From contig RPFO01000418.1 in the NCBI GenBank assembly GCA_009746045.1, positions 394,501 to 458,500 on the forward strand: a stretch of DNA of 64,000 bases. Direction: 5' to 3'. Below are positions 1-54,687 of this stretch, one piece after another (the first letter of the stretch is position 1; each line of letters starts with the position of its first letter). Both the position numbers and the translations under genes were made by a program. The notes beneath the pieces were generated by a model. The model saw only the letters and a program-made list of their open reading frames with translations, had not been told where the DNA came from and did no database searches. This stretch comes from Mesostigma viride. Lineage: Eukaryota; Streptophyta; Mesostigmatophyceae; Mesostigmatales; Mesostigmataceae.

Positions 1-3000
1 CGCGCGAGTACGAGCAGGTGCTGCTGTCGCCCATGTCGGAGCGTCCAGATGACGAGGACGACTCGCGCCAGCTGCGCAATCAGTTCAACTTCTCTGAGCG
101 CGCCGCGCAGACGCAGAACAACCCGCGCAGGGTGAGCAAGGGGATGCACCGAGCAGCGTGGCAAGGTGGAGGGGGAGGGGAGCACTGTAACAAAGCATGT
201 GGCAAGGTGGAGTGGTTTGATGCATCGGGCAGACATGGCCGGGCACAAAATTTGTTAGGCAAATTCAGGGGCCAGAATCGTCGAATAATGCGGACATCGC
301 GCTTAGACAAAGGCACCGCCTAAGCAGAGTGGAAAAGAAAGTGGTCAGGGCACAGTGGGCACATTCGTGGTCAGGCACAGTGGTCGGGCATAAGAGTGGT
401 CAGGTCACAGGGGGCATGAGTAGTTGGACAAAGCAGACAGGCCCAGTTGGACTGAGCAGGCAGTAGAGTGGCGGTACAAGGCAGGCTCATGCATGTCCCA
501 TGTCGCCGGAGAATGCATTCACTTTTTTCAAGAATCTGGATGGTTTCATCGCCATCTATTGGGTGCTTGCTAAGATCATGATCAGGATATACATGACAAG
601 CGACACGAACTCTTACATATGAACTCTTACGGTGTTACTTACGGTGTTACTTACGGTGTGTTTTGCTGTTGTGTTAGTGTCCATATCTGTCTATGTTCTG
701 TGCGTGTGTGTCTGTCTGTTGTGTGTAACTCCCCCCAACTCCCTGCAACTTCATTGCCCTCCCCCTCTGCACAACCTATCCTTTTCCTTCAGCCCATTGC
801 TGACACCCCATTGCTGTACCCGGCACCCACCATGCTCATCGCTGCCTCTCTATGCCCACAGATCTGCACACAACCCGGGCACAAACTGCCCACAAAAGTT
901 CCCACAACCCGGGCACAAATCGCCCACAAAATAGCCCACAACCCGGTCACAAAGTTGCCCACCACCCTGTTTTCCGTGATGCTGTCTCCCCGCAGGACCG
1001 CGCCACGTCCATGGAGCCGCCACCCATGCAAGTGTACACGGGCCAGTCGACGCAGTGGGACATCTACGACGCGTACATCGAGGACCAGGAGCGGCTGGCC
1101 AAGCAGGCCGAGCGCAACAAGGTGGGCGGGATATGTGCCGACACAAACGTGGTTGGGCCATGTGCAGGAGTGACTGTGCAAGCCCTGTGAGCAAGCCCTG
1201 TGAAATAATGTCATTACTCAAAACTAGAGCGCCCCGGTGGCTTGGCGCAACCCACAGTAAGGACAGGCCCAACAAGAAGCCAGCCCGCGTGCAGCCCGCG
1301 AATTCTTGTAGTGCACCTGGGTCGGGAATATCTTTGGGACCCACCCACGATTGGCCCCTCACTCGCGTCCCCTTCTTGGATTGGGCGCGTACTTTTTAAG
1401 CAATACTCGGGGAATGGTGCCCAAGTTTCGCTTAAGTAAAGTAGATCATAATCAACATTGGTCATTGGGCAATCCCATACTACAAGTATTGTAATATACA
1501 AGTATTATATGCAAGTATTGTAATATATCACTTGTGTAATAATATGTTGGTCTCCCTTGCCTTCAGCCTTACTCAAGTGCCCACATTCGTGGCCGCATAT
1601 TCATCCCAGCTGTCGGTTCATTCTGCGTCATCATTCTGCGCTCATGCCCGCGCTCTTTATCCTATCTCTTGCCCCCCCCCCAGCCCGGCATCCCCGGCGC
1701 CAAGAGTGGTGACGGCCTGCTGAATGGCCACCTGCACGACCCGCCCAAGCCGCCGACGGAGAAGGAGAGCCTCATCCACTCGGCCAGCATGATGAAGGCG
1801 GCGAAGGTCATGGAGCGCATGGTCAATCAGAACTCGTTCGATGACATCGCGCAGGTTGGGGCTACTTTCCTCCTCTTCCTCTTCCTCTTCCTCTTCCTCT
1901 TCCTCTTCCTCTTCCTCTTCCTCTTCCTCTTCCTCTTCCTCTTCCTCTTCCTCTTCCTCTTCCTCTTCCTCTTCCTCTTCCTCTTCCTCTTCCTCTTCCT
2001 CTTCCTCTTCCTCTTCCTCTTCCTCTTCCTCTTCCTCTTCCTCTTCCTCTTCCTCTTCCTCTTCCTCTTCCTCTTCCTCTTCCTCTTCCTCTTCCTCTTC
2101 CTCTTCCTCTTCCTCTTCCTCTTCCTCTTCCTCTTCCTCTTCCTCTTCCTCTTCCTCTTCCTCTTCCTCTTCCTCTTCCTCTTCCTCTTCCTCTTCCTCT
2201 TCCTCTTCCTCTTCCTCTTCCTCTTCCTCTTCCTCTTCCTCTTCCTCTTCCTCTTCCTCTTCCTCTTCCTCTTCCTCTTCCTCTTCCTCTTCCTCTTCCT
2301 CTTCCTCTTCCTCTTCCTCTTCCTCTTCCTCTTCCTCTTCCTCTTCCTCTTCCTCTTCCTCTTCCTCTTCCTCTTCCTCTTCCTCTTCCTCTTCCTCTTC
2401 CTCTTCCTCTTCCTCTTCCTCTTCCTCTTCCTCCTCCTCCTCCTCTTCTTCTTCTTTCTACGTTATCTTCTCTTTTTTATTTTTGTTTTTCTTCTCTTTT
2501 CTATTTGAAGGTTTGGGATTGGAGCAACTGGGAGGTTGCCTGGCAGGTTGGTGATTGATGTGTGAAGCTATGGGGGCCGTCAGGCCTGGTAGTTAACAGG
2601 GTTGGCTGTGGCGAGAGTCAATGCAACTCTCGCGGTTTTCTGCTATGCTGTCTTAAACCACCACGTTCGCTCGTGCCCGCTCATAAGGACTACATGCAGT
2701 ATATAATCATTTCACTGTTGCTCCTAATATTTCTTGGTGACCGGATTGGCTCTATCGCTACCGCGGCCAGGACTACAAGTAGTGACCACTGGAACCTTGA
2801 CCTTCGCTGCCACTTCATGAAACAATAGTAGTATGAGTTTTTATTTAATCACTCCTCTTGTCCAGGACTACAAGTACTGGGAGGACGATAACACCTCTTT
2901 TGTCCGGTGGTCCTGTCTATCTCTGGGTCATCACCTCGGTCCTAATCGTTACCACCTCCAGGACTACAAATACTGGGAGGACGCGAGCGACGCGTTCCGC

Positions 3001-6000
3001 GAAATGGAGGGCACGCTGCTGCCGCTGTGGAAGTTCTACAACGAGCGCGCCAAGCGCAAGCACGTGACGGCCCTCTGCTGGAACCCTGAGTACGCGGACC
3101 TGTTTGCCGTTGGCTACGGCTCCTTTGACTTCATGAAGCAAGGCACGGGGCTCATCTGCTGCTACAGCCTCAAGAACCCGTCGCACCCTGAGTACACGTT
3201 CACGACCGAGAGTGGCGTCATGTGCCTCCACTTCCACCCGCAACACTCGTCGCTGCTTGCGGTGGGGCTGTACGACGGCACCGTCATGGTGTACGACGTG
3301 CGCAACAAGGTCAACCGGCCCATCTTCGCGTCCACCGTCAAGACGGGCAAGCACACTGACCCCGTGTGGCAGGTGAGGGGGGGGCTTGCCCCATGCATGC
3401 TTGCCTCATACACACATTATAAGCTTTTTGAGTCAATGACGGAGACAATGATCTGAGTACAGGCGCTTGTGGTGTGTGTCCATGCTCCGTACTTAACTAT
3501 AGTAAAGTGTATTGATTAGGTGTTGTTGAGTATACTTGTAAAGGCAGCTGCCAGTGTTGCTTCTACACTTGTCTGCATGATAGCTTCCACACCCTGACCT
3601 TCCAAGAGGGAGGTTTCATAAGAGGGAGGTCAAATAGACGACATCCCTAGCCTGCGGTTCCTGCATCATGTTTCTCCTCTCCACCCCGCTCACACACGCA
3701 CACACATACAATCTGCTTTCTTTCCGTGGTACTGTGCGACTAAACAGCGCACAAGCAACAATCTGCTTTCTTTCCGTGGTATTGTGCGACTAAACAGCGC
3801 ACATGCAACAATCTGCTTTCTTTCCGTGGTATTGTGCGACTAAACAGCGCACATGCAACAATCTGCTTTCTTTCCGTGGTATTGTGCGACTAAACAGCGC
3901 ACAAGCAACAATCTGCTTTCTTTCCGTGGTATTGTGTGACTACTAAACAGCGCACAAGCAACAATCTGCTTTCTTTCCGTGGTATTGTGCGACTAAACAG
4001 CGCCCCAGCATCTGGTTTGCGCATAGCCCCCCGCTCCCCGTGTCACCTTCTTCTGTTCCACCGCGCACACACATACACGCAACCCCACCATGGCCACAAG
4101 GCACAACCACGACGGCCACCACACTTAACAATGTAATACCCCCCCCACCGCCACAACTACCCCTGCTGTGCAAAACAATCACAACCACCACCGCGGCCTT
4201 GCCGACCCCAGGTGGTGTGGCAGGAAGACGACCTGAGCAAGGCGCTCAACTTCTTCTCGGTGTCCTCAGACGGGCGCGTGACGCTGTGGATCATGTCCAA
4301 GAGTGAGTTGCAGTACCAGGATGTGATGGAGCTCAAGCTGACCAGCAGCTTGCGCGAGTTAGAGCCGGAGGACGAGACCACGCTGGGCAGCCTCGCGGGG
4401 GGGTGCTCCTTTGACTTCAACCGCACGAGCGACCACCTGTTCATCGTGGGCACGGAGGAGGGGCGGATCCACAAGTGCTCGAAGGCGTACAACTCGCAGT
4501 ACTTGGAGACGTACAAGGCAAGCGTAGGGATGGAGTGCTAGTTAGTGCTGTTACCAGCTAGTCAATGAGCTGGCATTGCGTGTACAACTCGCAGTACTTG
4601 GAGACGTACGAGGCAAGCTTATGGATGGAGTGCTAGTTAGTGCTGTTACCAGCTAGTCAATGAGCTGGCATTGCGTGTACAACTCGCAGTACTTGGAGAC
4701 GTACAAGGCAAGCGTAGGGATGGAGTGCTAGTTAGTGCTGTTACCAGCTAGTCAATGAGCTGGCATTGCGTGTGCAACTCGCAGCACTTGGAGACGTACG
4801 AGGCAAGCATGGCCAGGATGACAGCTATTGAATTTGCTTACGTCATGCAAGCGGTGTTAATGTCACGGAAGTGATGATGAAAAATGTTGAACGCACACGA
4901 GGCGTACGAAACACAGTACTCAGAGACTTGCAAAGTCTAGGCAAGGTTACCGATGGGGCGCTAGTTGGTGATGGTTCTCATTCGATGATCAGCTTGCCGC
5001 ATGCGCGAACGTCTCAGTACCGGGAAATGTGCAAGGCCGGCAGGGATGGAGCAATTATATTATTATTATTATTATTGTTATTATTATTATTTAGCTTGTG
5101 ATCCTGCCTTTATGATCCCTAAAAATCTCTTATGTATCCTATTGCACCCCCCTGACGCTTCTTCTGATCTACTCCCTTAACAATTACCCCCACGTTCTTC
5201 TGATCTACTCCCTTAACAATTACCCCCACGTTCTTCTGATCTACTCCCTTAACAATTACCCCCACGTTATTCTGATCTACTCCCTTAACAATTACCCCCA
5301 CGTTCTTCTGATCTACTCCCTTAACAATTACCCCCACGTTCTTCTGGTCTACTCCCTTAACAATTACCCCCACGTTCTTCTGGTCTACTCCCTTAACAAT
5401 TACCCCCACGTTCTTCTGGTCTACTCCCTTAACAATTACCCCCACGTATCGCCATCTATCCCCCTATGCCCTTAGTTTGCTAACCTGCCGAGTCTTCCGG
5501 CCTACCACAACGTGCCTGCCCACCTGCCCCCCCCACGCCTGCAGGGCCATCACATGTCGGTGTACGCGGTGCGCTGGAATTGCTGGCACCCGCGCGTGTT
5601 CCTCTCCTGCTCCGCGGACTGGACGGTCAAGCTGTGGGACCACAACCTGGTCAAGCCCGTCATGTCCTTTGACCTCAACAACGCAGTCGGCGACGTCGCC
5701 TGGTATCCAAACTCGAGCACCACTTTTGCGGCGGTGACCAACGATGGCAAGGTGAGGGGAGGGCGGGACATGCTATTTTTACTGTGCAACTGGGCTCTAC
5801 CATCTTATTACATTATGGCTGCACGGTGAGCAACCACTGCAAGGTGAGGGTTGGGGTACGACTAGGCAATTTCTTGTTGTTGGTAGTTTACTGGGGGGCA
5901 ATTTCTGTTGACAGTAACAGGGACCAACGACGGCGAGGTGATCATATCCGTGACCAACGACGGCGAGGTGATCATATCCGTGACCAACGACGGCGAGGTG

Positions 6001-7184
6001 ATCATATCCGTGACCAACGACGGCGAGGTGATCATATCCGTGACCAACGACGGCGAGGTGACATTTGCACATGAGTAATACCTTTTCCTTTTCTTGTCAT
6101 TGTTGTCATCCTGTTTTTCTCCTTCTTAATCCTCATCTTTAGGTCCAACTTAAGTTTGCCCTCATTCCTTGCCCTCATTCCTTGCCGTTGCCCTTGGCTG
6201 CCGTGGTGCATCCAGGTGCATGTGTACGACCTGAACGAGAACAAGCACGAGCCGATGTGCGAGCAGAAGATTGTGCACAAGGCCAAGCTGACCAAGATCG
6301 CGTTCAACCCAAAGGTGAGGGCAAGCACAATTAAGTATACGCGTCCAGCCCAAAGGTAGGCCAACCTTAGGTAGAGAAGGCATTCAATGAAAAAGTCGGG
6401 ACAGTGTGACCAAGATCGTGTTCCACGCAAAGGTAGGGGCACGCAGATTTAAGATTTTAATGTACGCGTCCAACCCAAATGTAGGTCAAGCCTAGCTAGA
6501 GAAAGCGGTCAATAAACGGTTGGGACAAGCTGACCAAGGTCGCGTTCAACCCAGAATGAGAGCAAGCTGGGTGCACCATCTTGTGAAGTTTGATGATAAA
6601 TGGGGGCGCAAGAATGCTGGGTTGATGCATAGAACAAGAGTCCGCCTGCGATGGGAGGTAACAGAGCAGCTTTTTTTTTTTTTTTTTCAACGCAGGGGGT
6701 GAATGGGTGACCATTTATTTGTTAAGGTCCTCACATTCAGTTCCTTATTTCTCTGGCAGAACTGTTTCGTGGTGGCAATCTGGAGTGTGCAGGGGTGTGT
6801 GATTTGGGACGGTTAGGCGAACAACTAACCTCGCGTGTAAGGACTGATGAAGGTGTGGAGCTGGTGGGACTGATTAGTCTACTCCGTTCCAACACTCTGT
6901 TTGTATACTGCCACTGGATGGTTGTGTCCTTGACATATTCAACCGCGTTTATCCTTTTTTGGGTTCGTTACGTGTTTATCCATGCTTTTGTTTTGTCGTG
7001 CCTTGCTGCGCAGAGCCCCATTGTGCTTGTGGGTGACGACCGCGGCTGCGTGACGTCCCTGAAGCTGTCGCCCAACCTGCGGAAGTTCTCCATGCCGGAC
7101 AAGACCAAAAGCCACCAAGAGCTCGAAACAGAGAAGCTGGACCGGATATTGGAGCTGGCACTCAAGGGCGAGGGGGCCATTTAG
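1..7184 (+). CDS. DNAI1: Axonemal outer-arm dynein intermediate chain (IC78/DNAI1 type), 3' part of gene, 8 exons
   Basis: This is a WD-repeat intermediate chain of the outer dynein arm, which anchors the motor on axonemal doublets in flagella. Exons read from the sequence: 3-131 (5' partial), 996-1121, 1684-1854, 2962-3372, 4212-4517, 5545-5751, 6216-6314, 7014-7184, with stop TAG at the end. They give about 539 residues; the family is about 680-700, so roughly 150 N-terminal residues lie left of the window. Family landmarks include [49 protein letters not shown], then the beta-propeller with [38 protein letters not shown], and the last-exon motif [10 protein letters not shown]. All seven introns are phase 0. 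Six donors are GT; the donor after exon 5 is GC (AAG|GCAAGC). Introns are rich in tandem repeats, several of them copies of exon edges. Assignment to IC78/DNAI1 rather than IC69/DNAI2 rests on the N-terminal and [11 protein letters not shown] motifs. Confidence 0.93.
132..995 (+). other. Intron 1 of the dynein gene with short degenerate repeats
   Basis: The donor is GTGAGC at 132 and the acceptor CAG ends at 995. Near 866-955 there are three degenerate units built on CACAACCCGGGCACAAA/T followed by GCCCACAAA. No coding exon or transposon was recognised inside. Confidence 0.6.
1868..2456 (+). repeat. (CTCTTC)n hexanucleotide microsatellite, ~565 bp
   Basis: An almost perfect pyrimidine hexamer array, about 94 units, ends in CTC and TTC runs. 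It lies in intron 3 of the dynein gene, starting 13 bases after the donor at 1855. It reads open as Phe-Leu or poly-Ser but sits between a clear donor and the DYKYWED exon, so it is treated as intronic. Strand-asymmetric polypyrimidine of this length can form triplex (H-DNA). Confidence 0.95.
2771..2985 (+). repeat. Three tandem copies of the exon-4 acceptor and exon head
   Basis: The motif CAG|GACTACAAGTACTGG occurs with spacing 95 and 96 bp: heads at 2771 (stop after three codons), 2866 (in frame, open for 32 codons) and 2962 (chosen exon start). The chosen start gives the family sequence [17 protein letters not shown] without insertion. Use of 2866 would add 32 residues in frame. Confidence 0.85.
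3709..4003 (+). repeat. 50-bp minisatellite in dynein intron 4, ~6 copies
   Basis: Units start with CAATCTGCTTTCTTTCCGTG near 3709, 3759, 3809, 3859, 3909 and 3962; the last step is 53 because of a 3-bp insertion. Copies differ at one to three positions. The units are contiguous with no unique spacers. Confidence 0.92.
4491..4810 (+). repeat. 95-bp tandem repeat seeded by exon-5 tail and its GC donor, 4 copies
   Basis: The motif AACTCGCAGTACTTGGAGAC starts at 4491 (inside exon 5) and recurs at 4586, 4681 and 4776, an exact 95-bp period; the fourth copy has two changes. Each copy carries the exon end and a GCAAGC donor (4518, 4613, 4708, 4803). Only the first donor keeps an open frame, because a TAG follows. 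Confidence 0.92.
5157..5447 (+). repeat. 36-bp minisatellite in dynein intron 5, ~8 copies
   Basis: Units of 36 bp contain TCTACTCCCTTAACAATTAC and CCCCACGTTCTTCTG, with single-base variants (GATCT/GGTCT). The reverse strand reads as an open 12-residue repeat ([12 protein letters not shown]). This is an artefact of a period divisible by three rather than a gene. Confidence 0.92.
5921..6064 (+). repeat. 30-bp repeat seeded by exon-6 tail, 5 copies
   Basis: Exon 6 ends GTGACCAACGATGGCAAG followed by donor GTGAGG at 5752. About 170 bp downstream the element GTGACCAACGACGGCGAG plus GTGATCATATCC repeats five times at a 30-bp period (copies end at 5940, 5970, 6000, 6030, 6060). The array is therefore a copy of the exon edge and its donor. 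Confidence 0.9.
6400..6565 (+). repeat. Two decayed copies of exon-7 tail in dynein intron 7
   Basis: Exon 7 ends with TGACCAAGATCGCGTTCAAC then CCAAAG|GTGAGG (donor 6315). Similar segments lie at about 6405-6440 (TGACCAAGATCGTGTTCCAC) and 6527-6562 (TGACCAAGGTCGCGTTCAAC), about 120 bp apart. They show progressive loss of the donor. Confidence 0.8.
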
Positions 7185-8247: not shown

Positions 8248-8859
8248 CTAGGTCCTAGTTACAGGGGTGTGGGCACCGCGGCCCGAATCGCTATGAATGC
8301 CATACTTGGTCACACGCGGAGCCCCCACAGGCTTGGGGGTGGTCTCCTTCATCACTACTTGCCATCTATCCTTGCGCACCATCTGCCTCCATATTACAGA
8401 CAAACCAGGAGGCTGCCCGGGGGTGAGCCCGTCACGTCTAGTGTAGCACATGTCCATGCCGAGTCTATCACGAAAAGTCCACGGGTGGCGGCCCTGCCGC
8501 GCGCGGCCGGGGGCACGCCAGGTGAGGACATATCGCCCAGGCTGGGCGGGCTTGGTGCCAGCTAGTCTATCTGATGTATCTACCTGATCTGTGCGGGCCA
8601 GGTGCCCGGCTAGGCCCAGGCGCCTGTGCCTAATAATGTGGGAAACATAGGGCAAATCAGCGTACAAATCCTCATTACTAATGTGCAAACCAAAGGGGAT
8701 GTTAAGGGCCTTGCGCAGCATCTTGGTGACGGCGCCGTCGAGTCGTTGCTCCAGCTCCTGCATCAGTGTCCACGTCTCGGCGCCGTAGGTCAGGATCGTC
8801 AGAATGACGACCTTGAAGAGGTCACGCTTGCCGATCCGAGGTAGGGCGGGGTTGCTCAC
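8248..8859 (-). pseudogene. C-terminal fragment of LINE A ORF2 (reverse transcriptase protein)
   Basis: About 203 residues from the thumb onward. Landmarks are [16 protein letters not shown], the LAGHLARTDQVDTSD motif and a basic C-terminus. The same region occurs in the longer copies at 35727-36840 and 55491-56600, where it follows the YADD catalytic motif. Here the catalytic core is missing and the frame opens in unrelated sequence at about 8860, so this is a remnant. Confidence 0.85.
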
Positions 8860-8968
8860 ACATGTACATGACTAAAAAGGCTAGGCCTCAGCTGGTATAG
8901 TGCCTGTAGTAGGCGGGCATGTACAAGGCCACTGTCTAACTATTCTACACTACTGCTGCTGTATTCCC

Positions 8969-10427
8969 CTAGGCTGGGGCTTCTGGAGTCGCTGGGGCCG
9001 CGGTGGTCGAGGGGGTCGCGTGCCAGGGCTTGTGGCCGACGTAGATGGCCGCCCCCTTCCAGTACACCGGCTGGCCCGCCTTGGTCTGCCGGAGCTGGAG
9101 GTAGGTCGGCCATAGCTAACGTCGCCGTTGTTGCTGCGCCAGGGTCAAGTCGTCGTCCACGGTGAAGGGAGTGTTCTCGAGCCGCATGCGGCGTCGGAGA
9201 AACGAAATCTTGTCCGCTGGGCTCTCAAAGATGAGAAGAAGCGGAGGCGCCCCTGCCTTACCCCGCGCGCGGGGGAGGCGGTGGGCGGTCAGCTTTATCT
9301 CACCAAGGAGGCCCATGCGTGCAAGGATTTTGCTCTCAAACGCACGTGCAAGCTTCTCGGAATTCTCACCTTCCTCCATGGTGAAGTTCTTGAGTATGGC
9401 GTTGTGGCTGTGCTTGGCGAGCTCGGCCTCCTCGCGGAGGTCAAGCGTCTGCCGTTGGAGCTGGGCTGCGACGGCGGAGGTGGTGGAGGTGGTATGTTGC
9501 TTAAGCATGTGCGCCCAGGTTGTGATGGGAGGAGCAGGCGCCGGCCAGGCCAGCAGGGGCTGGCTTGGCGGCAATGTCCTTCACCGCCTGGGCGGTGAGG
9601 CCTGCGGTGTTCTGCAGGACCTCGATAGCGATGGCATTATCCTTAAGACGCTGGTCGATGTCGCGGAGCTGGGCGGTGATGGAGTCGGTGGAGGTGGAGC
9701 CGTGATGGAGTCGGTGGAGGCGGAGGGGGGGGGGGGGGGGGAGGCGAGGAGGGTGGCGGTGTCGGTGGGGATGGTGGGGAGCTCAGCAGCCAGCGTGCGA
9801 CCCACAGCTGCCAGGCACATCTGCAGCAATGGGCGTCATGTGCTGTGAGAGGGCGTCGTGGAGGTGGCGGAGGAAGGTGGATTCGGTAACGGGGGCGGGT
9901 TGAAGAAGGTCTGCAGCCGAGCGCTTAGTGATGATATAATAGAGAGCTGCGAGCTGAAGGCGGGGGCGAGGCCAGCCGGCCATGTTGGCCGAAGAAGGGG
10001 CGTCAGCTGCGCTATCGGAAAACCGGCCGTCAGCTCCGTTGCGGAAAAGGTGGGTTCGGGAATGAAACTGCTCGCACAGGGCCAGCAGTGAGGCGTGGGA
10101 CCCGTAAAACACGAGCTCCAGTAACTTGTAGGAAGGCATTTCGAAAAAGGCAAGCCTGTTGATGTCGAAGGTGGCAAAGAGCCGATCAACGTCAAAATCT
10201 CGCTCAGACCAGCCAGGTTCGCCTGGGCGACTGCGCTTTGGATCAGGCGAGGCTGAGGGCGAGGCATGAAGCCCGGGAGCCGGGTGTTGGGCGACCACCA
10301 GTGCGCGACTAGTGTCACTGCTGCCTGCCGGACCTGATGGCGAAGCTGCAGCCGGAGCTGCAGACGTATTTTCATTGCCGAGCGCAGCCGCCAGGCTGCG
10401 TTGCGTCGAGGCGCGTTTATTCGCCAT
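8969..10427 (-). pseudogene. LINE A ORF1, broken by one nonsense codon and frameshifts
   Basis: The N-terminal part (9783-10427) starts with Met-Ala-Asn-Lys-Arg and has QRSLAAALGNE, DTSRALVV, SPSASPDPKRSR and VFYGSHASLLALC. The middle (about 9575-9830) is Ser/Pro/Thr-rich and changes frame at a C-run. The C-terminal part (9116-9574) has TWAHMLKQHTTSTTS, DLREEAELAKHS and RLPRARGKAG. A TAG replaces the Glu codon of RRRELWP at about 9115, after which the frame continues (VYWKGAAIYVGHKPW) to a stop at 8969. The order of basic N-terminus, coiled region, RRM-like strand pattern and C-terminal basic domain resembles L1 ORF1 RNA-binding proteins. It is homologous to 38290-39669. Confidence 0.8.
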
Positions 10428-10620
10428 ATATTGCGTAATAGCTTCGGAAAATTATATCAGCATGTGCGTCGTAGCAAGGCGCGTCGATTGTGATATTCAC
10501 GGCTAAATTCGGTGCTCAAACGTGAAAGTTATGAGCTCCGCCGTCAGCCATGGCTATCTCGTGGCTCGTACCGACTCATGGACTAGTACATCAGCCGTAC
10601 TAGCGCGATCACCATGCATC

Positions 10621-11924
10621 CAGGAATAGTTGTCTCCTTGATACATTGTCGATTATATGTATCTCTTGTTAGCGTTGGCTTTGTTTATTTTTACTTGGGG
10701 CTTTTGCTCTGATGTAAGTAATTATATTTTTAAATACATAAATCGACAATGTATTGCCTGTCTAATTCCCATAATTTTTCATTTTCAATAAATGGATATT
10801 CAACAAACGGCGGGCTTGAGACTCGACCTATTTTCATGGTCCGGATTCTCCAGATTCCATTCGTTTACACGCTTCGTTTACAGCCGGATCCGTCGGATCC
10901 GGACGGATCCCGTTGTGGAAAAAGTGCCCGGCGCGGTTCCGGCCAGACAGATGGCCCTTGTCAGGGCCGGCGCGGCAAATATTGTTGTAATACGTACTTT
11001 CTGCTAGGAGATGCGACATACGTGCATGAGAATGCTCCCCGAGCGGTGCCGAAGATTCGCCCCGTTCAATTGTTGGTTCGTTTTGCGCCATTCGGCGAGC
11101 ATCGAACGGAGCCTGAACCCGCATCCCATGTTGAGTTGAGTTGAGTTTTTTCCGGGGAAATGTTTCCGGGGAAAAGTTGAGTTGAGTTTATTCCCGCGCT
11201 GCCCACCGTGCGGCGTTGGACACAACAACAACAACAACAGTTGATTCCCACGCCGGTTAAGAACGCCGCGGAAGCTTAGTAAAATCTCATTTCATGCAAC
11301 AAAGTTATAGTAGTAGTAGCAACTGGCCGGCTGATTCGCCGGCCACCGGCCATGTGAAACAGTTGCCGGCGCGGCGCAGCCTGTGGAAAAAAGCCTAAAC
11401 GAAGCTCTGATCCTGGCCTGCACTGGTTGTCTGATTCATGACTCCCTAAGTAAAAGTTGTTGTTATAGTAGTGTCTCACTTAGTCAGAAGTACTAGTAAT
11501 CTTTTTTTGTCTGTCGTTATAATTTGCTAGCGCTTTTTCTTCCTTGAGCAGCCTGCTACCCCTTTCCATCCACCATACGGTCAATCCCCTTGATTTGTTT
11601 ATTACTCCGTCATCTCTCCAGCAATGCCTTGCCACCATACCTAGTCACGCCGCACCGCTCACGCACCGACGGTACACAACCAGCCGGCAGCCATAGCCTA
11701 GCTTAGCTTACAGCAGTAGTACAGCCAGCAATGCAACGCCCTAGCTATCAAGCGCTTGCTTGCCCATGCACGCTCCTTGCCATGATATGCTCAGGCGGGT
11801 CATATTGCACCCACAGAATTCGCCGGATTGTCTATCATGTCCGATTGCTGATGTGGCATGCCTCAGACTGGCATGAAGGAGAAAGGGGTTCTCTACCCTT
11901 TCTTCCTGTTGCGCATATGAATTA
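10621..11924. other. Repeat-derived spacer, including a relative of the CACTA-like MITE
   Basis: No gene was recognised. 10985-11125 is similar to the reverse complement of 59500-59640 (shared TTGGTTCGTTTTGCGCCATT and GGCGAGCATCGA), so a diverged relative of that element lies here. 11813-11920 forms an inverted repeat with 12017-12120. Confidence 0.5.
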
Positions 11925-15660: not shown

Positions 15661-16045
15661 TTGATTCCTTACTATTCCCGTTGCAGCCTGCTCCCCCCTG
15701 CATTTAACAAAACATAGTCAGATAGGATTGCAGGGCACAAATGGAAGATGTTAATAAATAAGCATATACACCAAATTTCAGTTGCAATAACTGCATGACC
15801 ATCATCAAGGAGCGAGCTAATTGGGTGACTGACAATTGGACCACAAAAACTGTCGCGTATTTTACCGCCGCGTATTTTACACCCCCCACGTATAATACGC
15901 GTATTTTAGGTCCGCGTATTATACCCCGTACACGTATTTGCCAACGCGGTTCATGGTGATCGGCGATGCCTGCCCCGGCCTCTGCCCCCAGTGGACCGGG
16001 AACCAGCAAGGCAACTAGTCAGAAGAACGGGCCGCGGGGCGGCGG

Positions 16046-17017: not shown

Positions 17018-17039
17018 TTGTATAGGCATGGCTTCACTT

Positions 17040-19160: not shown

Positions 19161-19169
19161 TCCCACTGT

Positions 19170-20922: not shown

Positions 20923-29904
<8,982 letters not shown>

Positions 29905-42956: not shown

Positions 42957-43252
42957 GATGGATGGATGGATGGATGGATGGATGGATGGATGGATGGATG
43001 GATGGATGGATGGATGGATGGATGGATGGATGGATGGATGGATGGATGGATGGATGGATGGATGGATGGATGGATGGATGGATGGATGGATGGATGGATG
43101 GATGGATGGATGGATGGATGGATGGATGGATGGATGGATGGATGGATGGATGGATGGATGGATGGATGGATGGATGGATGGATGGATGGATGGATGGATG
43201 GATGGATGGATAGATGGATGGATGGATGGATGGATGGATGGATGGATGGATG
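42957..43252 (+). repeat. (GATG)n array, right part
   Basis: About 74 units with one TAGATG variant. It was contiguous with 40541-41174 before the LINE C insertion, giving about 930 bp in all. 43253-43290 (CAATCCTACCGGTCTAATCT) is the continuing 3' UTR of the outer LINE C. Confidence 0.93.
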
Positions 43253-43308
43253 GAGACACGCAATCCTACCGGTCTAATCTATCTACAAAAAACAATCCTA
43301 CTCTATAT

Positions 43309-45400: not shown

Positions 45401-46051
45401 CCCTTCGACGACTGCCGCAGCAAACGGCGTCTTGCAAAATGCCTAGCTTTCCTTTTTCAAACTTGGCAAGAGGGATCCTCTACGATTTAGGGCGACCAAC
45501 TGCTGCAAAGATCTTATCAGCACGCAGCAGCACTTCGTCGTGGTCACATGTCGACCTGGAAGGACCTCGCACGTGCAGACGTGCTCCTCACCTGTTTCTC
45601 GCCTGTGGTCGGCATACAGTGCCGGCAGGCTGCTGTCTCCTGTACCAGCCTCCGCCGTAGGTGGTACGTCTTGTTCTGGGATTGCTCCTACTCAGTCAAC
45701 GGTAATATAGCCGTTTATTATTCCACACTTCCATCCAATCCCAAGTACTAGTAGTTAGTTCTGTCGACGGGGTGGGCAGTTCACCGTGCGCGCCACGACA
45801 TGACGTGACAGTCATCGGACTTGTGCGGCACCGAACCGCCACCGATGCGGTCCCTCAACAGCAAGATCTCGCTCAGCGACTCGGCCCGCTGCTGCCTTGG
45901 CAAAAAGATCCACCCAACAAATCGAGCCATGTTCGCAATGCACGAGATCTGCGGGCGTTTAGGGCGGAAGGGAAGGAAGGCGAGAAGGCAGGCAAATCGG
46001 TATCTCCCGGCCTCTATATTATCAATTTCCTGACCTTAGTGACGCTCGGTC
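45401..46051. promoter_or_regulatory. Shared upstream region between FKBP (-) and D-enzyme fusion (+)
   Basis: The 651 bp between the two divergent start codons must hold both 5' UTRs and promoters. A TATATTAT at 46014-46021 lies about 30 bp before the D-enzyme ATG, but that is too close for a TATA box if there is a normal 5' UTR. No other element can be assigned. The region has no repeat copies, unlike its surroundings. Confidence 0.5.
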
Positions 46052-49000
46052 ATGGTTTCCGTCGTGTGCGCGACGCGGGCCGGTGCCATCGCCAATGCTA
46101 CCGTTAAACCCGCGAAGCTCGGGACGAGCGTGTCGTCGTCTGCACATCGCTGCCTGGCTCCGAAACGGAGCCAATTCTCGGGGGCAGCCTTGCCATTAAA
46201 GGTAAAAACCCCTAGCAGGGTGGAATCTAGCAGGAGAATTGCCGTCGCCTCCACTGAAGATGACTATCCCTACCCTTGGGGAAAGAATGTGGAATCTCTT
46301 CCACTGCCGGCGACGTGGATTAGGCAGGATGACAAGCGCGTCGGTGGCGTGTTGCTGCACCCGTCAAGCCTGCCCGGCAATGAGGCACTCGGCACCCTTG
46401 GCAAGGAGGCCCACGCATTTGTCGACTGGCTCGCAGAGGCAGGGCTCGGGCTCTGGCAGGTGAAGAAAAATTGCTTCGAAATTGCTTTTAATCTACTGCG
46501 ACCGCGTCCTAGGTCGGTCTTATCTCGCCAGCTTTGCTGCAGCTCGCCCCATTCCGCATGTCGCGGCAGAAATGCACTCACCTGCGTCGCTCTAGCACCT
46601 GCGTGTCCTCATCGGTCTGTCGGTCTCTGTCACCCCAATGCATCGGCTTTGGTTCATGGGCACCTGGAACTTGTGACTCGTCATGCGTCCCATGATCGCA
46701 CGACGGCCAGATTCTGCCACTGGTGCCGCCAGACAAGGACGGCTCCCCCTACTCCAGCTCAGAGGCCTTCGCGGGCAGCCCGTGGCTGATCGACATCACC
46801 GAGTTGGTTCGGCTGGGCCTGCTCCCACCCGAGGACCTGCCGCTGGGGGAGAAGTTCACCACCTGGTCGGATGTAAGTATGAAGTTCTCGAACAGGTCAG
46901 ATGTGAGTGTACAATTCACCACCTGGTCGGATGTAAGTATAAAGTTCACGAACAGGCCCAATGTGAGTGTACAATTCACCACCTGGTCGGATGTAAGTAT
47001 ACTCACATTCCAACATGCGTACGAGGAGAGCATCGTTGTTTATTTGAATCAGTATTCCCCTCCCCCTCCCCCCCGCTCCCTCTCGCATGGCATCCCTTAA
47101 AACCAAGCCAACTTGTATGATTGTATTGTTGGTGGCCCATTGAAGCGTTACATGCTGCATGGCCTTTTTCCTCATTCAAGTGCCTTATTGGCCTTTGAAT
47201 GACCAATAAATAAGGGATGGTGTTCTACATGGCCAAGAGTTGCATGGTTGTCCTTACGGATGAATTGCCCCGCTGCACATTCCCAGCGCCCCCCACCACA
47301 ATTTTCTTTATACCATCCCCCACCGCGTTGTTGTTATATCTCTCGCCCCGAACTGTCATATTGTTGTTAGACTCTCTCATCCTCTTGTTGTACTGTGATA
47401 CTCTGTTATCCTCTTTATCTGTTATCATCCTTTTGTTATCATCTTGTTATACTCTTGTTGTACTGTGATAATCCTATTTATCTCGTATAATCCTTTTGTT
47501 ATCATCTTGTTGTACTGTGATGCTCTGTCATCCTCTTTATCTCTTATCATCCTTTTGTTATCATCTTGTTATACTCTGTCACGCTGTTGTTATATCTTCT
47601 CTCACCCCACCCCAACCTTGTTATTGTGTCTCCCACCACCCAACACCACCCCGTTGATTTCATGCCCCCACTCTTAACACCCCGGCAGCTGTTTGCCAAC
47701 AAAGGCGCGCTGCTGACCAAGGCCCAACCCCTTGCTGTTGTTTCGCTCACCCCACCACCACCACCACCACCTTATTCTTTCTCACCCGACCACCACCACG
47801 TTAATCTTTCTCACCCCACCACCACCACATCAATGTTTCTCACCCCACCACCACCACATCAATGTCTCTCACCCCACCACCACCACATCAATGTTTCTCA
47901 CCCGACCACCACCACATCAATGTTCCTCACCCCACCACCACCACATCAATGTTTCTCACCCCACCACCACCACATCAATGTTTCTCACCCCACCACCACC
48001 ACATCAATGTTCCTCACCCCACCACCACCACATCAATGTTTCTCACCCCACCACCACCACATCAATGTTCCTCACCCCACCACCACCACATCAATGTTCC
48101 TCACCCCACCACCACCACATCAATGTTCCTCACCCCACCACCACCACATCAATGTTTCTCACCCCACCACCACCACATCAATGTTTCTCACCCCACCACC
48201 ACCACATCAATGTTCCTCACCCCACCACCACCACATCAATGTTCCTCACCCCACCACCACCACATCAATGTTTCTCACCCCACCACCACCACATCAATGT
48301 TTCTCACCCCACCACCACCACATCAATGTTCCTCACCCCACCACCACCACATCAATGTTTCTCACCCCACCACCACCACATCAATGTTCCTCACCCCACC
48401 ACCACCACATCAATGTTCCTCACCCCACCACCACCACATCAATGTTTCTCACCCGACCACCACCACATCAATGTTCCTCACCCCACCACCACCACATCAA
48501 TGTTTCTCACCCCACCACCACCACATCAATGTTTCTCACCCCACCACCACCACATCAATGTTCCTCACCCCACCACCACCACATCAATGTTTCTCACCCC
48601 ACCACCACCACCTTATTCTTTCTCACCCCACCACCACCACATCAATGTTCCTCACCCGACCACCACCACATCAATGTTTCTCACCCCACCACCACCACAT
48701 CAATGTTTCTCACCCGACCACCACCACATCAATGTTCCTCACCCCACCACCACCACATCAATGTTCCTCACCCCACCACCACCACATCAATGTTTCTCAC
48801 CCCACCACCACCACATCAATGTTTCTCACCCGACCACCACCACATCAATGTTCCTCACCCCACCACCACCACATCAATGTTCCTCACCCCACCACCACCA
48901 CATCAATGTTTCTCACCCCACCACCACCACATCAATGTTCCTCACCCCACCACCACCACATCAATGTTTCTCACCCCACCACCACCACATCAATGTTTCT

Positions 49001-52000
49001 CACCCCACCACCACCACCTTATTCTTTCTCACCCCACCACCACCACATCAATGTTCCTCACCCGACCACCACCACATCAATGTTCCTCACCCCACCACCA
49101 CCACATCAATGTTTCTCACCCCACCACCACCACATCAATGTTTCTCACCCCACCACCACCACATCAATGTTCCTCACCCCACCACCACCACATCAATGTT
49201 CCTCACCCCACCACCACCACATCAATGTTTCTCACCCCACCACCACCACATCAATGTTCCTCACCCCACCACCACCACATCAATGTTTCTCACCCCACCA
49301 CCACCACATCAATGTTTCTCACCCCACCACCACCACATCAATGTTCCTCACCCCACCACCACCACATCAATGTTTCTCACCCCACCACCACCACATCAAT
49401 GTTCCTCACCCCACCACCACCACATCAATGTTCCTCACCCCACCACCACCACATCAATGTTTCTCACCCCACCACCACCACATCAATGTTTCTCACCCCA
49501 CCACCACCACATCAATGTTCCTCACCCCACCACCACCACATCAATGTTTCTCACCCCACCACCACCACATCAATGTTCCTCACCCATCATCCCCAAGCCG
49601 TGTTCCCTGCACGATTACAACCGCCCCTGCAGCTGTTTGCCAAGAAGGGCGCCCTGCTGACCAAGGCCGCGCGGGCCCTGCTCGATGGCAAGGCCTTCTC
49701 GACCGCGTGTTCTGTGGAGCTGCTGACGGAGTTTGAGTCGTTCAAGAACCAGTACACGTGGCTGAGAGAGGCCGCGCTGTTCATGGTGCGTGGGAAGACA
49801 GTAGCCGTCTGTGTCCCCACCCCCCTGCCTGGTATTGTTGCAGCGGATGCAAGAAGTGGTGCTCCCACCCCCCTGCCTAGTATTGTGGTAGCGGATGCAA
49901 GTAAAAATATGGTAGTATATTGCAGCGGATGCAAGAAGTTGCGCCGGGTTTGATTTATAAAAAGAAACAGCACTCTTAACTGAGAGCGGCTTTTATGGTA
50001 AGGGGAGAGGTGCTCAGTGAGCTTGCCTAGGTCACTTACTCACGTGATCCAAGTTTTTCTCCTTTTCAATGGCTTGCCCCCGAGACCACTGACATTATGG
50101 TACAGTCATTCACGCCTTAAGTTGAGTTCGAGGTTTTACACAGGTCAACCCAACTTAAGGCGTGAACCCAACTTAAGGCGTGAATGGCTCTACTAAATCG
50201 TACTTATTTGAACTAAAGATACTAAAACATACTATTATGAACTACATCGAACTTGGAAAGCCGAAATCGTATGCGACCCAACTTAAGGCGTGAACACAAC
50301 TTAAGTCAACCCAACGTAAGGCGTGAATGACTGTATGGGCACTAGGCTTTGGACACAGGACCTGTGTGAATGGAGGTACCTGTTTGGGTCTTACATCATG
50401 GATGCGCGTTCCATCATGGGGACACGCGTTCGACGTCACCAGGCGGAGGTCTAGTCTTTTTTTTTCTTTGTTCTGAGGTTTCTGAGGTCTTCTCCGCGGC
50501 CACGAATGCTTCTCATGAACCAGTTACTGCAGCTTGTCCACGCCTACTCTACGGCTTCGGAGGGCTACCACTCCTTGACGGGTGGGATTCTAGCGATTGG
50601 GTTATGGGAACTAGCCCATAGGACAGTTGAGCATCTATTGGCTGCCTCGATCTTCCTGTTTGCTGTCCGCATCCAATAAAGCATTGCTGTGTGTAACCAT
50701 AACCTTGTTGCTCGCCCTTCTTCTCTTCCCTTCTTCCTAATCCCCATTCACCTGCCCACGCCCAACTCGCTCGAGCTTTTTTTTTTCTGATGGGAAAGGT
50801 GTGGAACCAAGAGGGGCGATGAATAGTCGGAAAATGCTAATGTAACACACTCCACCCGAACGCCTACCAAAACCCCGCCCGCCCGCCCCCCGCCTCCCCC
50901 CCCCCCACTCAGGTGGCCACCAATGTCCACCCGGGTAAGTCCTGGTGGGAGTGGCCCGCGGCCCTGCGTGACCGCGACCCCTCCGCGCTGGCTGCCTTTG
51001 AGAAGCAGCACTTGGCAGGGATCCAGGAGCAGGAGGCTATCCAGTTTCTGTTCGAGCGCCAGTGGCAAGCGCTCAAGAAGCACGCAAACTCGCTCGGCAT
51101 CCGCCTCGTGGGCGACATGCCCATCTACGTGGGCGCCCACTGCACGTCCGTGTGGGCTCACCAGGAGTTGTTCATGCTGGACCCCGTCACCAAGGCCCCT
51201 GCGGCCGTCTCTGGCGTCCCCCCGGATCTCTTCAGCGCCGACGGCCAGCTGTGGGGTTCTCCACTCTACAAATGGGAGGCACACAAGGCGGAGGGCTTCA
51301 AGTGGTGGGTGGAGCGTCTCAAGCGGAACTTCCAGCTGGCGGACATCTGCCGTATCGATCACTTCCGGGCTTTCGCTGGGTACTACAATAATGCTGCGGA
51401 TGCCCCCAATGCCCGGTCGGGGCACTGGGAGGAAGGCCCCGGGCTGGCGTTGTTCGAGGCTTGCAGGAAAGCGCTGGGTGGTGCCAGGGTGCCCATTATC
51501 GCCGAGGACTTGGGGTTTGTGACCGAGGACGTGGTCAAGCTGAGGGAGGACATCGGGGCCCCGGGCATGTTGGTGCTTCAGTTCGCGTGGGGCGGGGCCA
51601 ACCCGACGAACGTCTACCTTCCCCACAACCACTATGCGAACGCATTCGTGTACCCCGGCACGCACGACAACGACACCACCGTGAGCTGGTGGCAGGGTCT
51701 ACCGGACGGCGACAAGGCGTTCCTGCGGAGGTACCTCCGCTACGAGGGGGACGACATCGAGTGGGAGCTGATCCGGACCTCGTTCCGGTCGCCCGCAGAC
51801 TCAGCGGTCGTGGCCATGCAGGTGGGTATCATATTCATATTATTATTATTATTATTATTGTTATTATTATTATTGTTATTATTATTATTATTATTATTAC
51901 TATGCAGGTGCGTGCCCGCAGGTTGATAGGGCTCAACATCCCCATGTCGTCCCAATCGGGATATTCCGTGGTCGTGGCCATGCAGGTGCGTGCCTGCCAG

Positions 52001-54687
52001 TTGTGGAGGTTGAGGACTTGTGTTTCGTTTGCCTACCATGGACAGTGTGTGGCTCTTTTCTCCAAGCTCGCGGTACCCATTACCCTAAAAGTCCACCCCG
52101 CACAACCCCCGACCGTGCTGGGGCAAGGAGTACACGAAACCCTATAGTGAAACAATCAAACCTACTTCTCTACCTTCACTCTACGCTCACGCTACCATGG
52201 TCAGATGCTGCCCTCCACTCGACCACGGTCACTCCGCGGTCACTGTACGGTCATGCCACCCTCCACTCCACTGTACTCTACTCCACCGTGTCATGCCACC
52301 CTCTACTCCACGGTGCGCGCCACCCTTGACCCCACCGTGTTATGCCACCCTCTACTATCACTCTACCCTCACTCTAAAAGGGTCATGCCCTCCACTCCAT
52401 GGTCATGCTACCCTCGCTCTGCTACGCTCAGTCTTACCCTCAGTCTGCCTGAAACCCTATAACGAGTAATCAAGCCCGCTGTTTCTCGCCCCTCACTCTG
52501 ACTAAACTCATGCTACCCTCACTCGACCGTCTCCTACGTTCGCTCTCCGCCCCTGGCAGGACTACCTGGGCCTGGACGGCACCAACCGCATGAACATGCC
52601 CGGCAAGGCGTCCGGCAACTGGACTTGGACGATGAAGGCCGGGGCCACCAGCAAGCTGCTGGCGTCCAAGATCCGGTCCGAGCTGGAGATCACCAACCGG
52701 CTGCCGCGCAAGCAGGAGGGGGGGATCGTGCCCGTGCGCAACCGGGGGGACGCGGCCAACTGGGAGAAGGTCGTCATGAACAAGGTGAGCAGGTTGACAA
52801 ATCATTTGTATGGAAATATTTAAAACAGCTTTCCTTCAAATGGTTGGTTTTGTCTTGTGCACGATCATAAATAAGGTGATGAGTTTTTGTTGAACCAGCT
52901 GTCTCAAAAGACGTGTGTGCAACAGTTATCGGATTATCGTGGTTTTTATGGGCCAAGGTCGTCATGAACGAACATTTCGCGGAGGCTGGGCAAGTTCGAA
53001 AATGGTCTCTTCATTTCCTCACTGGTAGGTTTTCAATGCACAACATTCCATCCCCCCCCCCCCCCCCCCTGGTCCCCTTTATTTTTAAGGAAAGAAAAAA
53101 CTCAACTCGCTGTCTCAAACCCTGCTACGGGTACTCACAGCAAGTACGGAAACCAACCCCTCGGTACTCGTTTATACCAACAAGATGTTGTCCTCGTTTA
53201 CACCAACAGGATTTTGTACTCGTTTACACCAAATGGACTCGCTGTCTCAAAGCTCGCTATTTGTACTCTTTTGTATTCGTTTATACCAACAGGGCATGGA
53301 TGTGGTCGTCCCCGTGTTCACATGCATTTCTTTGCCACCACCACCACGACCTTCTGCCTTTCACCACCACTATTGCGCCACCCCTTGTTAAGTTCACCCA
53401 TGATGTTGACAGGACACGGGCGTGGTCGTGCCCATGTTCACATCTCACCCCTACCCACACCCTCCCTGCTCCTATCTAATCGGCCCTAATCTACCCGACA
53501 CCCTGACAGGACACGGACGTGGTCGTGCTCATGTTCGCGCCTTGGTGCAAGCACTGCAACGCGTTTGAGCCCAAGTACGAGGCGGTCGCGAAGCAGTTGG
53601 CTGGGCAGAAGGGCATCACGTTTGCCAGCATCGACATCACGCAGAACGACCGGCCAGACGGCGCATTTGCCAGCAAGACCATTCCCCAGGTGAGCCCTAT
53701 GATTCCATCTCATAATGACCTTTTATTCAAGGGCTTGTATGTCCTGACGGTGTATTTTACCAGCAAAACAGTTCCCCGTATATGCTCTACTAACCGACGG
53801 TTTTCAGATGGGCGGACATTTCAGTGATGAGTCATTTTAGTATCTTATCAACCAGTCCCAATGAGGGGGCCGTTTTACTGAGGCCATCCCCCAGGTATGC
53901 GTTCCTATTTAATTGGATCGGTGTAGCTAGTTGCGACAGTTTCTTTGTCTTACACCTTCCTCGGAAACTTTGAATAGGTTCTCGCATCTGCATGGCTAGT
54001 TCGTCTAACTACCCAGGGCTTCTGCGCTTTGTTCCTACATGTATGCACCGATGCCAGGTCGACGCTCTGCGAGGGATGTGGCATTCCGCTGTGTGCATGC
54101 ATTGATGAGCAGGCTTCCCATAGCATGGTGACCTTCCCATACTAATAATCCCATACCATCGCAACACTCGCATACCATATAGTGAAAGCGACGCTCCCAT
54201 ACCATATAGTGACCATTGCGACAGTAAGTAAGTACTTGCGTGTCATGCGCAAAGGCATGCCACGGAGTACTATGCTAATCTCATTAGAAAAATAATTACA
54301 CAAAAGTTTAAACAAATATCGTCTGCATCATCCCCCAACCGTTAAGCACTAGATGGGGATGTAATCCTCATCCGAGCTGTCCTCTACTGTAATGGCAGAC
54401 GAGGATTGCGACAGTCCCATGCCATATAGTGACCACTGGCATGTGCGGGGATGATGCTCATGCCTAGCTCATTTGAAAACGCCTCTGATTGGTGACTGGC
54501 GGCCTTGGTTCTCGTTTCACGGTTGGATCGTTCCCTGTGCAAACACCCTGCCTCTATTCTGCAGGTGTTTGTGGTAAGCGGCAAGGACAACACGGTCACC
54601 AAAATTGAATGGAAGGGAGGCAAGTCGGCCGATACCACGGTGGAGGATGTCGTCAAGTTTGTCAAGTCCAACCGCAAGCTTGCGTGA
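46052..54687 (+). CDS. DPE1: 4-alpha-glucanotransferase (D-enzyme, GH77) fused to a C-terminal thioredoxin/PDI domain, 7 exons, 719 aa
   Basis: The GH77 part transfers maltooligosaccharide chains in starch turnover. Exons: 46052-46459, 46711-46872, 49633-49785, 50913-51821, 52560-52784, 53510-53689, 54565-54687; all six introns are phase 0. Residues 1 to about 70 resemble a transit peptide. GH77 blocks: RVGGVLLHPSSLPG, LPLVPPDKDGSPYSS, GDMPIYVGAHCTSVWA, GVPPDLFSADGQLWGSPLY; catalytic Asp390 (CRIDHFRAF), Glu439 (IIAEDLG) and Asp493 (GTHDNDT). Exon 5 runs from the GH77 end (RMNMPGKASGNWTW ... KIRSELEITNR) straight into EGGIVPVRNRG and NWEKVVMNK. Exons 6-7 complete a thioredoxin fold with FAPWCKHC (Cys632, Cys635), cis-Pro in KTIPQ and FVKSNRKLA. 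Plant D-enzymes stop after the GH77 domain. Introns 2, 4, 5 and 6 contain copies of exon edges. Confidence 0.9.
46855..46995 (+). repeat. 60-bp tandem copies of exon-2 tail with three GTAAGT donors
   Basis: TTCACCACCTGGTCGGATGT followed by AAGTAT occurs at 46855, 46915 and 46975, an exact 60-bp period. Donors are at 46873 (chosen), 46933 and 46993. Because 60 is a multiple of three and no stop intervenes, use of the later donors would add 20 or 40 residues in frame. Confidence 0.9.
47225..47600 (+). repeat. Degenerate TTGTTAT/CTCTTTATC repeats in D-enzyme intron 2
   Basis: Pyrimidine-rich imperfect units such as ATCCTTTTGTTATCATCTTG and TACTGTGATACTCTG recur about every 75-80 bp. There is no coding signal. 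Confidence 0.6.
47689..47724 (+). repeat. Copy of exon-3 head with its acceptor, upstream of the satellite
   Basis: GGCAG|CTGTTTGCCAACAAAGGC and CGCTGCTGACCAAGGCC differ from the true exon head (49633-49668) at 3 of 36 positions. The acceptor is intact. From here the frame stays open through the whole satellite into exon 3. Confidence 0.85.
47745..49585 (+). repeat. 29-bp satellite in D-enzyme intron 2, ~63 copies
   Basis: The unit is CTCACCCCACCACCACCACA plus TCAATGTTT. Main variants have TGTTCCTC for TGTTTCTC, occasional CCCGACC, and three blocks ending TTATTCTT. The unit has no stop in any forward frame and 29 is not a multiple of three, so all three forward frames are open for over 1.8 kb. 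Confidence 0.95.
50103..50333. mobile_element. MITE of Tc1/mariner type with TA target duplication, 231 bp
   Basis: TA at 50101-50102 and 50334-50335 flank the element. The left end CAGTCATTCACGCCTTAAGT is matched by the reverse complement of the right end (CAGTCATTCACGCCTTACGT), 19 of 20. Inside, further ACTTAAGGCGTGAA copies lie in both orientations, so the element can fold back. No ORF. It lies in D-enzyme intron 3 (49786-50912). Confidence 0.85.
51838..51903 (+). repeat. (ATT)n array in D-enzyme intron 4
   Basis: Imperfect ATT/GTT trinucleotides of about 66 bp begin 16 bp after the donor at 51822. They are followed by two copies of the exon-4 tail (ATGCAGGTGCGTGCC at 51902 and GTCGTGGCCATGCAGGTGCG at 51971). 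Confidence 0.88.
53293..53440 (+). repeat. Two decayed copies of exon-6 head (thioredoxin exon) inside intron 5
   Basis: The true exon start is CAG|GACACGGACGTGGTCGTG at 53510. Copies: 53413 (CAG|GACACGGGCGTGGTCGTG) and 53293 (CAG|GGCATGGATGTGGTCGTC), spaced 97 and 120 bp. Both keep the acceptor AG; neither reaches the CKHC codons. Confidence 0.85.
54226..54351 (-). mobile_element. Short retroposon with (ACTT)n tail, copy 2, in intron 6
   Basis: Matches 35496-35633 and the reverse of 55154-55290 over about 125 bp (GCGCAAAGGCATGCCACGGA, TTTAAACAAATATCGTCTGC). It sits in the last intron of the D-enzyme fusion gene, between repeats GATTGCGACAGT and CCATATAGTGACCA. Confidence 0.72.

Follow-up and report, generated by a model that had tools for sequence, protein, structure and literature searches.

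The window analysed in this study, a 64,000-nt stretch of Mesostigma viride contig RPFO01000418.1, carries genes for a dynein intermediate chain, ALB3 and D-enzyme, which together have 20 introns inside it (Table 1). The dynein exons from 996 onward matched database protein P0001 with 100% identity over the whole query, and the splice junctions agreed. ALB3 exons 1-7 aligned with Chlorokybus ALB3 without gaps at the junctions, save one residue at or beside the exon 5/6 junction, and the last ALB3 intron (27926-29544) and the exon that follows it were taken from the gene finder alone. For D-enzyme, the M. viride protein P0121 (jgi/Mesvir1) was identical to the query over the 66% that it covered and confirmed the last three junctions, and all six junctions aligned with a Chlorokybus relative, none of them gapped. 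At 46043-54687, splicing joins the D-enzyme (GH77) to a C-terminal thioredoxin-like domain; this pair of domains recurs in Chlorokybus protein P0122, and the alignment spans the two. Broken open reading frames that by eye resemble reverse-transcriptase or retrotransposon pieces were present at 8251-17014 and 55494-63998, and long near-perfect simple or minisatellite arrays, several of them intronic, at 1871-2454, 23845-24047, 40541-41175, 42957-43254 and 47753-49585.

Table 1. Exons and exon-edge copies in the window, in window positions (new, absent from the list of the sequence-only reading).
Gene	Feature	Position	Strand	Remarks
Dynein	Exons	one ending 131; 996-1121, 1684-1854, 2962-3372, 4212-4517, 5545-5751, 6216-6314, 7014-7184		
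ALB3	Exons	21000-21312, 23496-23606, 24705-24779, 25542-25784, 26303-26413, 26706-26818, 27784-27925, 29545-29904		start of first exon undefined
D-enzyme	Exons	46043-46459, 46711-46872, 49633-49785, 50913-51821, 52560-52784, 53510-53689, 54565-54683		
Dynein	Older acceptor/head copy, exon starting 2962	2767-2784	+	score 14
Dynein	Acceptor and head copy, exon starting 2962	2861-2887	+	26/27 identical
Dynein	Copied exon tail, 31 nt	4487-4517	+	GC donor at 4518
Dynein	95-nt units in intron 4518-5544	4582-4676, 4677-4771, 4772-4808	+	last one partial
Dynein	Decayed copies in intron 4518-5544	4905-4933, 5008-5037	+	both new
Dynein	36-bp array in intron 4518-5544	5159-5447	+	
Dynein	Copies of exon tail ending 5751	5824-5850, 5922-6061	+	first new; second a 30-bp array
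Dynein	Copies of exon tail ending 6314	6340-6364, 6407-6441, 6465-6489, 6527-6565	+	first new; feature span 6340-6567
ALB3	Decayed copy of exon tail ending 23606	23700-23734	+	score 14; new
ALB3	Weak copies, donor at 24780	24881-24893, 24983-25021	+	score 13 each; first new
ALB3	Acceptor-tract copy, exon starting 25542	25453-25477	+	22/25 identical, 4 exon nt; below edge test
ALB3	Copies of exon tail ending 25784	25825-25848, 25887-25907, 25994-26016	+	second score 13, new
ALB3	Copy of exon tail ending 26413	26436-26479	+	36 exon + 8 intron nt
ALB3	Copy of exon tail ending 26818	26877-26915	+	35/39 identical
ALB3	Acceptor and head copy, exon starting 27784	27674-27701	+	
D-enzyme	Exon tail and donor	46855-46872/46873	+	
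D-enzyme	Older 30-nt half-unit	46883-46908	+	
D-enzyme	60-nt tandem units	46915-46974, 46975-47000	+	
D-enzyme	Acceptor and head copy, exon starting 49633	47680-47718	+	1.9 kb away, 29-bp minisatellite between
D-enzyme	Copy of exon tail ending 51821	51965-51991	+	shorter related piece at ~51902
D-enzyme	Copy of exon tail ending 52784	52949-52969	+	
D-enzyme	Acceptor and head copies, exon starting 53510	53289-53319, 53407-53439	+	
D-enzyme	Copies of exon tail ending 53689	53743-53777, 53881-53896	+	second score 12

Introns were used when they lay between homology-backed exons, with the last ALB3 intron as the exception. Nineteen window introns were tested (dynein 6, ALB3 7 and D-enzyme 6), and the 20th (dynein 132-995) was kept out of the pooled counts. 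The full sample of 85 introns also included 46 from dynein heavy-chain genes and 20 from two GH5 mannanase paralogues and one syntaxin near the window, the families being assigned by Pfam; the syntaxin introns depend on a Pfam family that covers part of the predicted protein. Dynein heavy-chain loci were located with Pfam PF12774 on ten contigs other than that of the window, and their introns were predicted by spliced alignment to intron-poor paralogues with a purpose-written aligner. This procedure predicted 36 introns in 12 loci, of which 26 were kept, and 62 in extended loci (overlap included), from which 20 were added. Introns beside exons shorter than approximately 80 nt and gaps of 39-75 nt were excluded before edge scoring. 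For heavy-chain intron L027, the donor at 2598 was chosen over an alternative prediction at 2610, and at least two of the kept heavy-chain introns had poor splice motifs. All 16 mannanase introns were kept, four of them bordering predicted exons of 17-23 nt. The limit to homology-backed exons was set because a self-trained gene finder degenerated and merged genes with repeats, and training on curated exons did not stop it from joining neighbouring genes. Some dynein heavy-chain genes on contigs C1909, C2022 and C458 had open reading frames of approximately 2000-2400 residues, and their paralogues had many introns.

Exon edges are copied into their own introns

Each exon edge was taken as 40 nt (30 exon and 10 intron nt) and aligned locally (+1/-1) to its own intron with simple repeats masked, and a score of at least 13 was counted as a copy. 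The reverse complement of the same intron and equal lengths of introns from other genes served as controls. A previous reading of the window made from the sequence alone (the sequence-only reading) had claimed that at least 12 of the 20 introns of these three unrelated genes carry copies of a neighbouring exon edge; our alignments bore this out, with copies in 13 of 20 introns against approximately 0.3 copied edges predicted. Among the 19 pooled introns, donor edges were copied in 12, acceptor edges in 4 and at least one edge in 13, whereas the reverse complement gave no match for either edge and the introns of other genes predicted 0.19 and 0.13 copies, respectively. The dynein intron at 132-995 fell below the threshold (tail 11.5, head 8). 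An earlier run on the window with 200 random draws per edge gave p<0.01 in the forward direction for 12/19 donors and 5/19 acceptors; on the reverse complement, 4 donors and 2 acceptors reached p<0.01, with scores of 10 to 12.5.

Nearly all of the coordinates listed in the sequence-only reading fitted the cores detected here. However, 25471/25532 and 51902 lay below the edge test, and 53870 was weak (score 12). The 25471/25532 pair, an ALB3 acceptor-tract match, scored 19 (p=0.013 with other introns as control). At 51902, 11 of 12 nt were identical to the D-enzyme donor, and the match to the 51971 copy was 24 nt long. The copies marked as new in Table 1, among others, had not been listed, and several of the unlisted copies score only 13-14.5.

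The exon-edge copies in the window introns are real, and the pattern holds in genes that were chosen independently of the earlier claim. Over the full sample, donor edges were copied in 34/85 introns and acceptor edges in 19/85, compared with 0.61 and 0.57 expected from introns of other genes. The reverse complement gave two donor matches, both among the last 20 introns, and no acceptor match. Copied donors and acceptors numbered 13/46 and 8/46 in dynein heavy chain and 9/20 and 7/20 in mannanase plus syntaxin. At least one edge copy was found in 44/85 introns overall, in 31/66 outside the window genes and in 2/11 introns shorter than 400 nt. When exon edges were compared with a wrong intron of their own gene (45-intron sample), 0/30 donor and 2/30 acceptor edges matched. 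Donor-only introns outnumbered acceptor-only introns in the full sample (25 versus 10, p=0.017). The donor excess looked clear in the window (12 donor versus 4 acceptor copies) but was not significant outside it (16 donor-only versus 9 acceptor-only introns, p=0.23). Searches of open-licence papers listed none that describes the copying of exon edges into introns across a genome.

Direct duplication extends through the introns

The dynein intron starting at 4518 contained 95-nt units (31 exon and 64 intron nt) at 4487-4808, three complete and one partial, for which Tandem Repeats Finder gave 3.4 copies and 96%; two decayed copies follow, and direct self-copy covered 72% of this intron. The unit was 60 nt in D-enzyme (18 exon and 42 intron nt), 118 nt in the dynein intron from 6315 (26 and ~92 nt; ~6289-6527) and 106 nt in one dynein heavy-chain gene (37 and ~69 nt). 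In a genome-wide search that covered the 95-nt unit set only, the exon end with its units (4440-4860) had a single match in the 440-Mb (439.9-Mb) assembly, namely itself. The recognisable part of many older copies was the exon stretch and donor motif alone, as would follow from conservation of the exon original and drift in the two intron parts. Identity spanned 100% to about 65-70%, in line with the earlier description of the copies as near-identical to barely recognisable, and a gradient of decay with distance from the exon was seen, by eye, only in dynein intron 4518. The 60-nt D-enzyme units (46855-47097), which include copied donors at 46933 and 46993, and the 96-nt dynein acceptor unit (2861-2962) were open and in frame; use of their copied splice sites would add 20, 40 or 32 residues.

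Over 65 introns, 34% of unmasked bases had a direct copy in the same intron, compared with 2.4% for inverted copies and 2.6% for copies in size-matched introns of other genes. A downstream direct copy was present for 363 of 1219 intron-interior 40-mers (30%) in 45 introns and a reverse copy for 17, indicating that the edge copies are one part of an intron-wide process. Virtual junctions set inside introns were copied in 25% of cases (227/916). The tandem duplication across splice junctions inferred in the sequence-only reading therefore stands in part: the copies are direct and the young head-to-tail units straddle the splice site, but the duplication is not specific to junctions. Its remark that the copies look unlike introners or transposon insertions agrees with our data, in which the 65 introns gave no sign of a shared family and similarity to other genes was close to the inverted background.

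Copying fell steeply on the exon side of the junctions. In the donor-side profile of the 65 introns, 40-mers centred in the exon at 10, 30 and 50 nt from the edge were copied in 38%, 18% and 3% of cases, respectively; those from 60 to 120 nt were copied in 0-2%, those at 140 nt in 2/45 and those inside the intron in 10-28%. On the acceptor side, copies were found for 19-21% of 40-mers at the edge, for 14-23% of those within the intron and for 0-3% of those lying 40 nt or more into the exon.

Random between-gene blocks in the window showed 4-6% direct and 3-6% inverted copies. In the 200 kb next to the window, a region that includes incompletely annotated genes, blocks reached 14% direct and 1.8% inverted, and nearby direct copies were found for 146 of 1392 random 40-mers (studied introns excluded) and inverted copies for 19. 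At a search distance of 700 nt, the proportions of direct and inverted copies were 0.33-0.55 and 0.01-0.07 in six gene bodies and 0.08-0.16 and 0.03-0.12 in five intergenic blocks; five gene flanks gave 0.27, 0.05, 0.08, 0.04 and 0.00 direct. Exon-interior bases at the same distance gave 0.15 direct versus 0.07 inverted, indicating that local direct matches are not wholly absent there, and 11/609 exon 40-mers had a copy inside the same exon. Duplication is likely to be concentrated in introns, and transposon-rich DNA may hide the same process between genes.

Copies seldom reach far into the exon

For each junction the best copy was taken. Its exon part was 3-69 nt at donors (n=34), with 27/34 at 18-45 nt, and 19-60 nt at acceptors (n=19), with 18/19 at 19-43 nt; the median copy spacing was 107.5 and 119 nt, respectively. 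Extents were measured by anchored extension. Copies that reach only a little way into the exon tend to be missed. For comparison, virtual junctions within introns were measured identically with the reach capped at the spacing, and 47-49% of them exceeded 40 nt (average per intron). At real junctions with a spacing of at least 45 nt, a reach of more than 40 nt was found in 4/33 donors against 15.4 expected (P below 0.0001, resampling introns) and in 2/19 acceptors against 9.3 expected (P below 0.0005, resampling introns). We do not think that this shortfall is a detection effect, because conservation on the exon side should make long copies stand out more at real junctions than at virtual ones. 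One donor copy with approximately 69 nt of exon retains an intact donor. A sharp exon limit, suggested by maxima of 38 and 39 nt in 65 introns, was discarded as an artefact of costly gaps; affine gaps gave 69 and 39 nt in the same introns and 69 nt (donors) and 60 nt (acceptors) in all 85. Copies thus rarely take in more than approximately 45 nt of exon. Such a limit is not a prediction of plain tandem duplication, and it is new relative to the sequence-only reading.

Decay and turnover of the copies

Among copied donors with a mapped junction, GT or GC was kept in 51/61, where exon identity predicts 46.0/60, and AG was kept in 15/23 copied acceptors (16.6 expected). The copied splice dinucleotides appear to be neither destroyed nor maintained and to decay at a neutral pace. 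A depletion of GT in copied donors, which had been expected, was not seen.

Edge copies turn over between the two mannanase paralogues, which have eight introns at matching positions and, in exons 2-5, 87% nucleotide identity (73.5% at 68 fourfold sites). At a score of 13, three copied edges were shared by both paralogues, while paralogue A alone had two and paralogue B alone had four. BLASTN between corresponding introns detected homology in four of the eight pairs, over 20-75 nt near the acceptor, and one intron end had short matches (33-46 nt) to an intron at another position in the other paralogue. The members of one pair measured 140 and 1107 nt; the longer contained a decayed acceptor-and-head copy 112 nt upstream and a long trinucleotide tract.

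Discussion

We consider it probable that M. viride introns lengthen by pervasive short-range direct duplication, with units mostly of approximately 30-200 nt, combined with a reach into exons that is limited by selection. Direct duplications might arise from slippage or end-joining without being aimed at splice sites; units that straddle a splice site carry that site and some exon into the intron. The original (first) donor would stay in use, and the exon original would be held by coding function, which would make edge duplicates the easiest to recognise. Duplicates extending more than approximately 45 nt into the exon may be removed by selection, as a second splice site with more exon context would compete with the first; the copy that has approximately 69 nt of exon and an intact donor counts against this step. 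Very short exons are poorly recognised, which fits the limited exon reach. Local duplication is denser in gene bodies than in intergenic and most flanking DNA, so that genome-wide duplication without any aim does not suffice as an account, unless the intergenic values are lowered by young transposons. A further counterpoint to unaimed duplication is that donor edges were copied more often than acceptors, though not significantly outside the window.

The bounded reach could instead mean that duplication is coupled to splicing or transcription, so that a spliceosome footprint or nascent-RNA structures set which DNA is copied, taking 20-45 nt of exon and sparing the exon core. The similar bound on the donor and acceptor sides and the concentration of direct duplicates in gene bodies are what such coupling would give, but we regard it as unlikely: the copying of virtual interior junctions shows that no splice site is needed, and young units combine exon parts of similar size with intron parts of very different length (approximately 22 to 92 nt, taken as the spacing less the exon part). 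A fuller version, in which splicing or transcription guides DNA duplication in transcribed introns, the exon part (~20-45 nt on either side) corresponds to spliceosome coverage and introns grow from splice sites and interior by an RNA-linked route, seems slightly more doubtful still. That most copied donors look usable, and that the D-enzyme and dynein head units are open and in frame, would suit copies that selection retains because, as backup or decoy splice sites, they help to regulate or protect splicing; this is very unlikely, however, given that GT and AG retention is near the neutral expectation and that 6/9 copied mannanase edges occur in one paralogue alone.

It is highly improbable that the copies stem from transposable elements or elements like introners, from simple repeats or from errors of assembly. 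The M. viride genome paper does ascribe long introns to repetitive elements (PMC6947507), and the mannanase intron end that matches a non-corresponding intron could be read in the same way, but between-gene intron similarity in the 65 introns compared is as low as the inverted control and simple repeats were masked in the tests. Assembly error cannot make decayed copies, although the copy number in near-identical arrays could still be wrong. The least credible reading, to which we give hardly any weight, takes the copies for remains of introns that were born when an exon piece bearing AGGT was duplicated in tandem (the Rogers model). Tandem duplication and exon sequence inside introns are common to both, but the model, as described in PMC4974935, places copies at the new splice sites, with the copied exon tail at the acceptor. 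Here, 0/66 tail copies lay within 10 nt of the acceptor and 0/27 head copies equally close to the donor; moreover, the copies are repeated within an already existing intron.

Short-range direct duplication limited by selection has a parallel in the potato RdRp gene, where tandem duplication across an intron-exon boundary copied splice signals and a short exon piece and made a new intron, and where an 83-bp tandem duplication inside an intron left the structure unchanged (PMC4974935). The potato duplication altered the mRNA, whereas in Mesostigma an existing intron is lengthened, edge copies occur in 44/85 of the introns sampled, and comparison with relatives suggests no change in the proteins of the dynein, D-enzyme and ALB3 genes. 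Intronic minisatellites and tandem repeats share with the young Mesostigma copies direct head-to-tail units of 30-120 nt, but the Mesostigma events are often single or few in copy number, many are decayed, and the duplicated unit takes in the exon edge.

Introner elements, found in Micromonas and other algae, are single families spread through many genes. The likeness lies in algal introns and in splice sites carried by duplicated sequence, but each Mesostigma intron is copied from itself and cover by other genes is at background level in the 65 introns compared.

Long introns are usually explained by transposons, as in the M. viride genome paper, which gives a 441.8-Mb assembly for NIES-296, 24,431 annotated genes and a mean intron length of 1141.9 nt, and names as the cause repetitive elements, which fill 30.1% of intron space (PMC6947507). 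The self-copied third of the intron sequence sampled here shows that introns can lengthen without mobile elements. Such copies are datable because one partner is a conserved exon edge; surveyed genome-wide, they would give a clock for intron growth and natural tests of how much exon context is tolerated with a second splice site. The pattern is worth seeking in other genomes with long introns.

Elsewhere in the assembly, the predicted proteins of L016 and L020 (contig C1535, ~599-601 and 639-641 kb) by eye resemble large-DNA-virus genes (ribonucleotide reductase and D5-like helicase). The surrounding 590-658 kb contains few local direct duplicates, amounting to 0.12 of bases.
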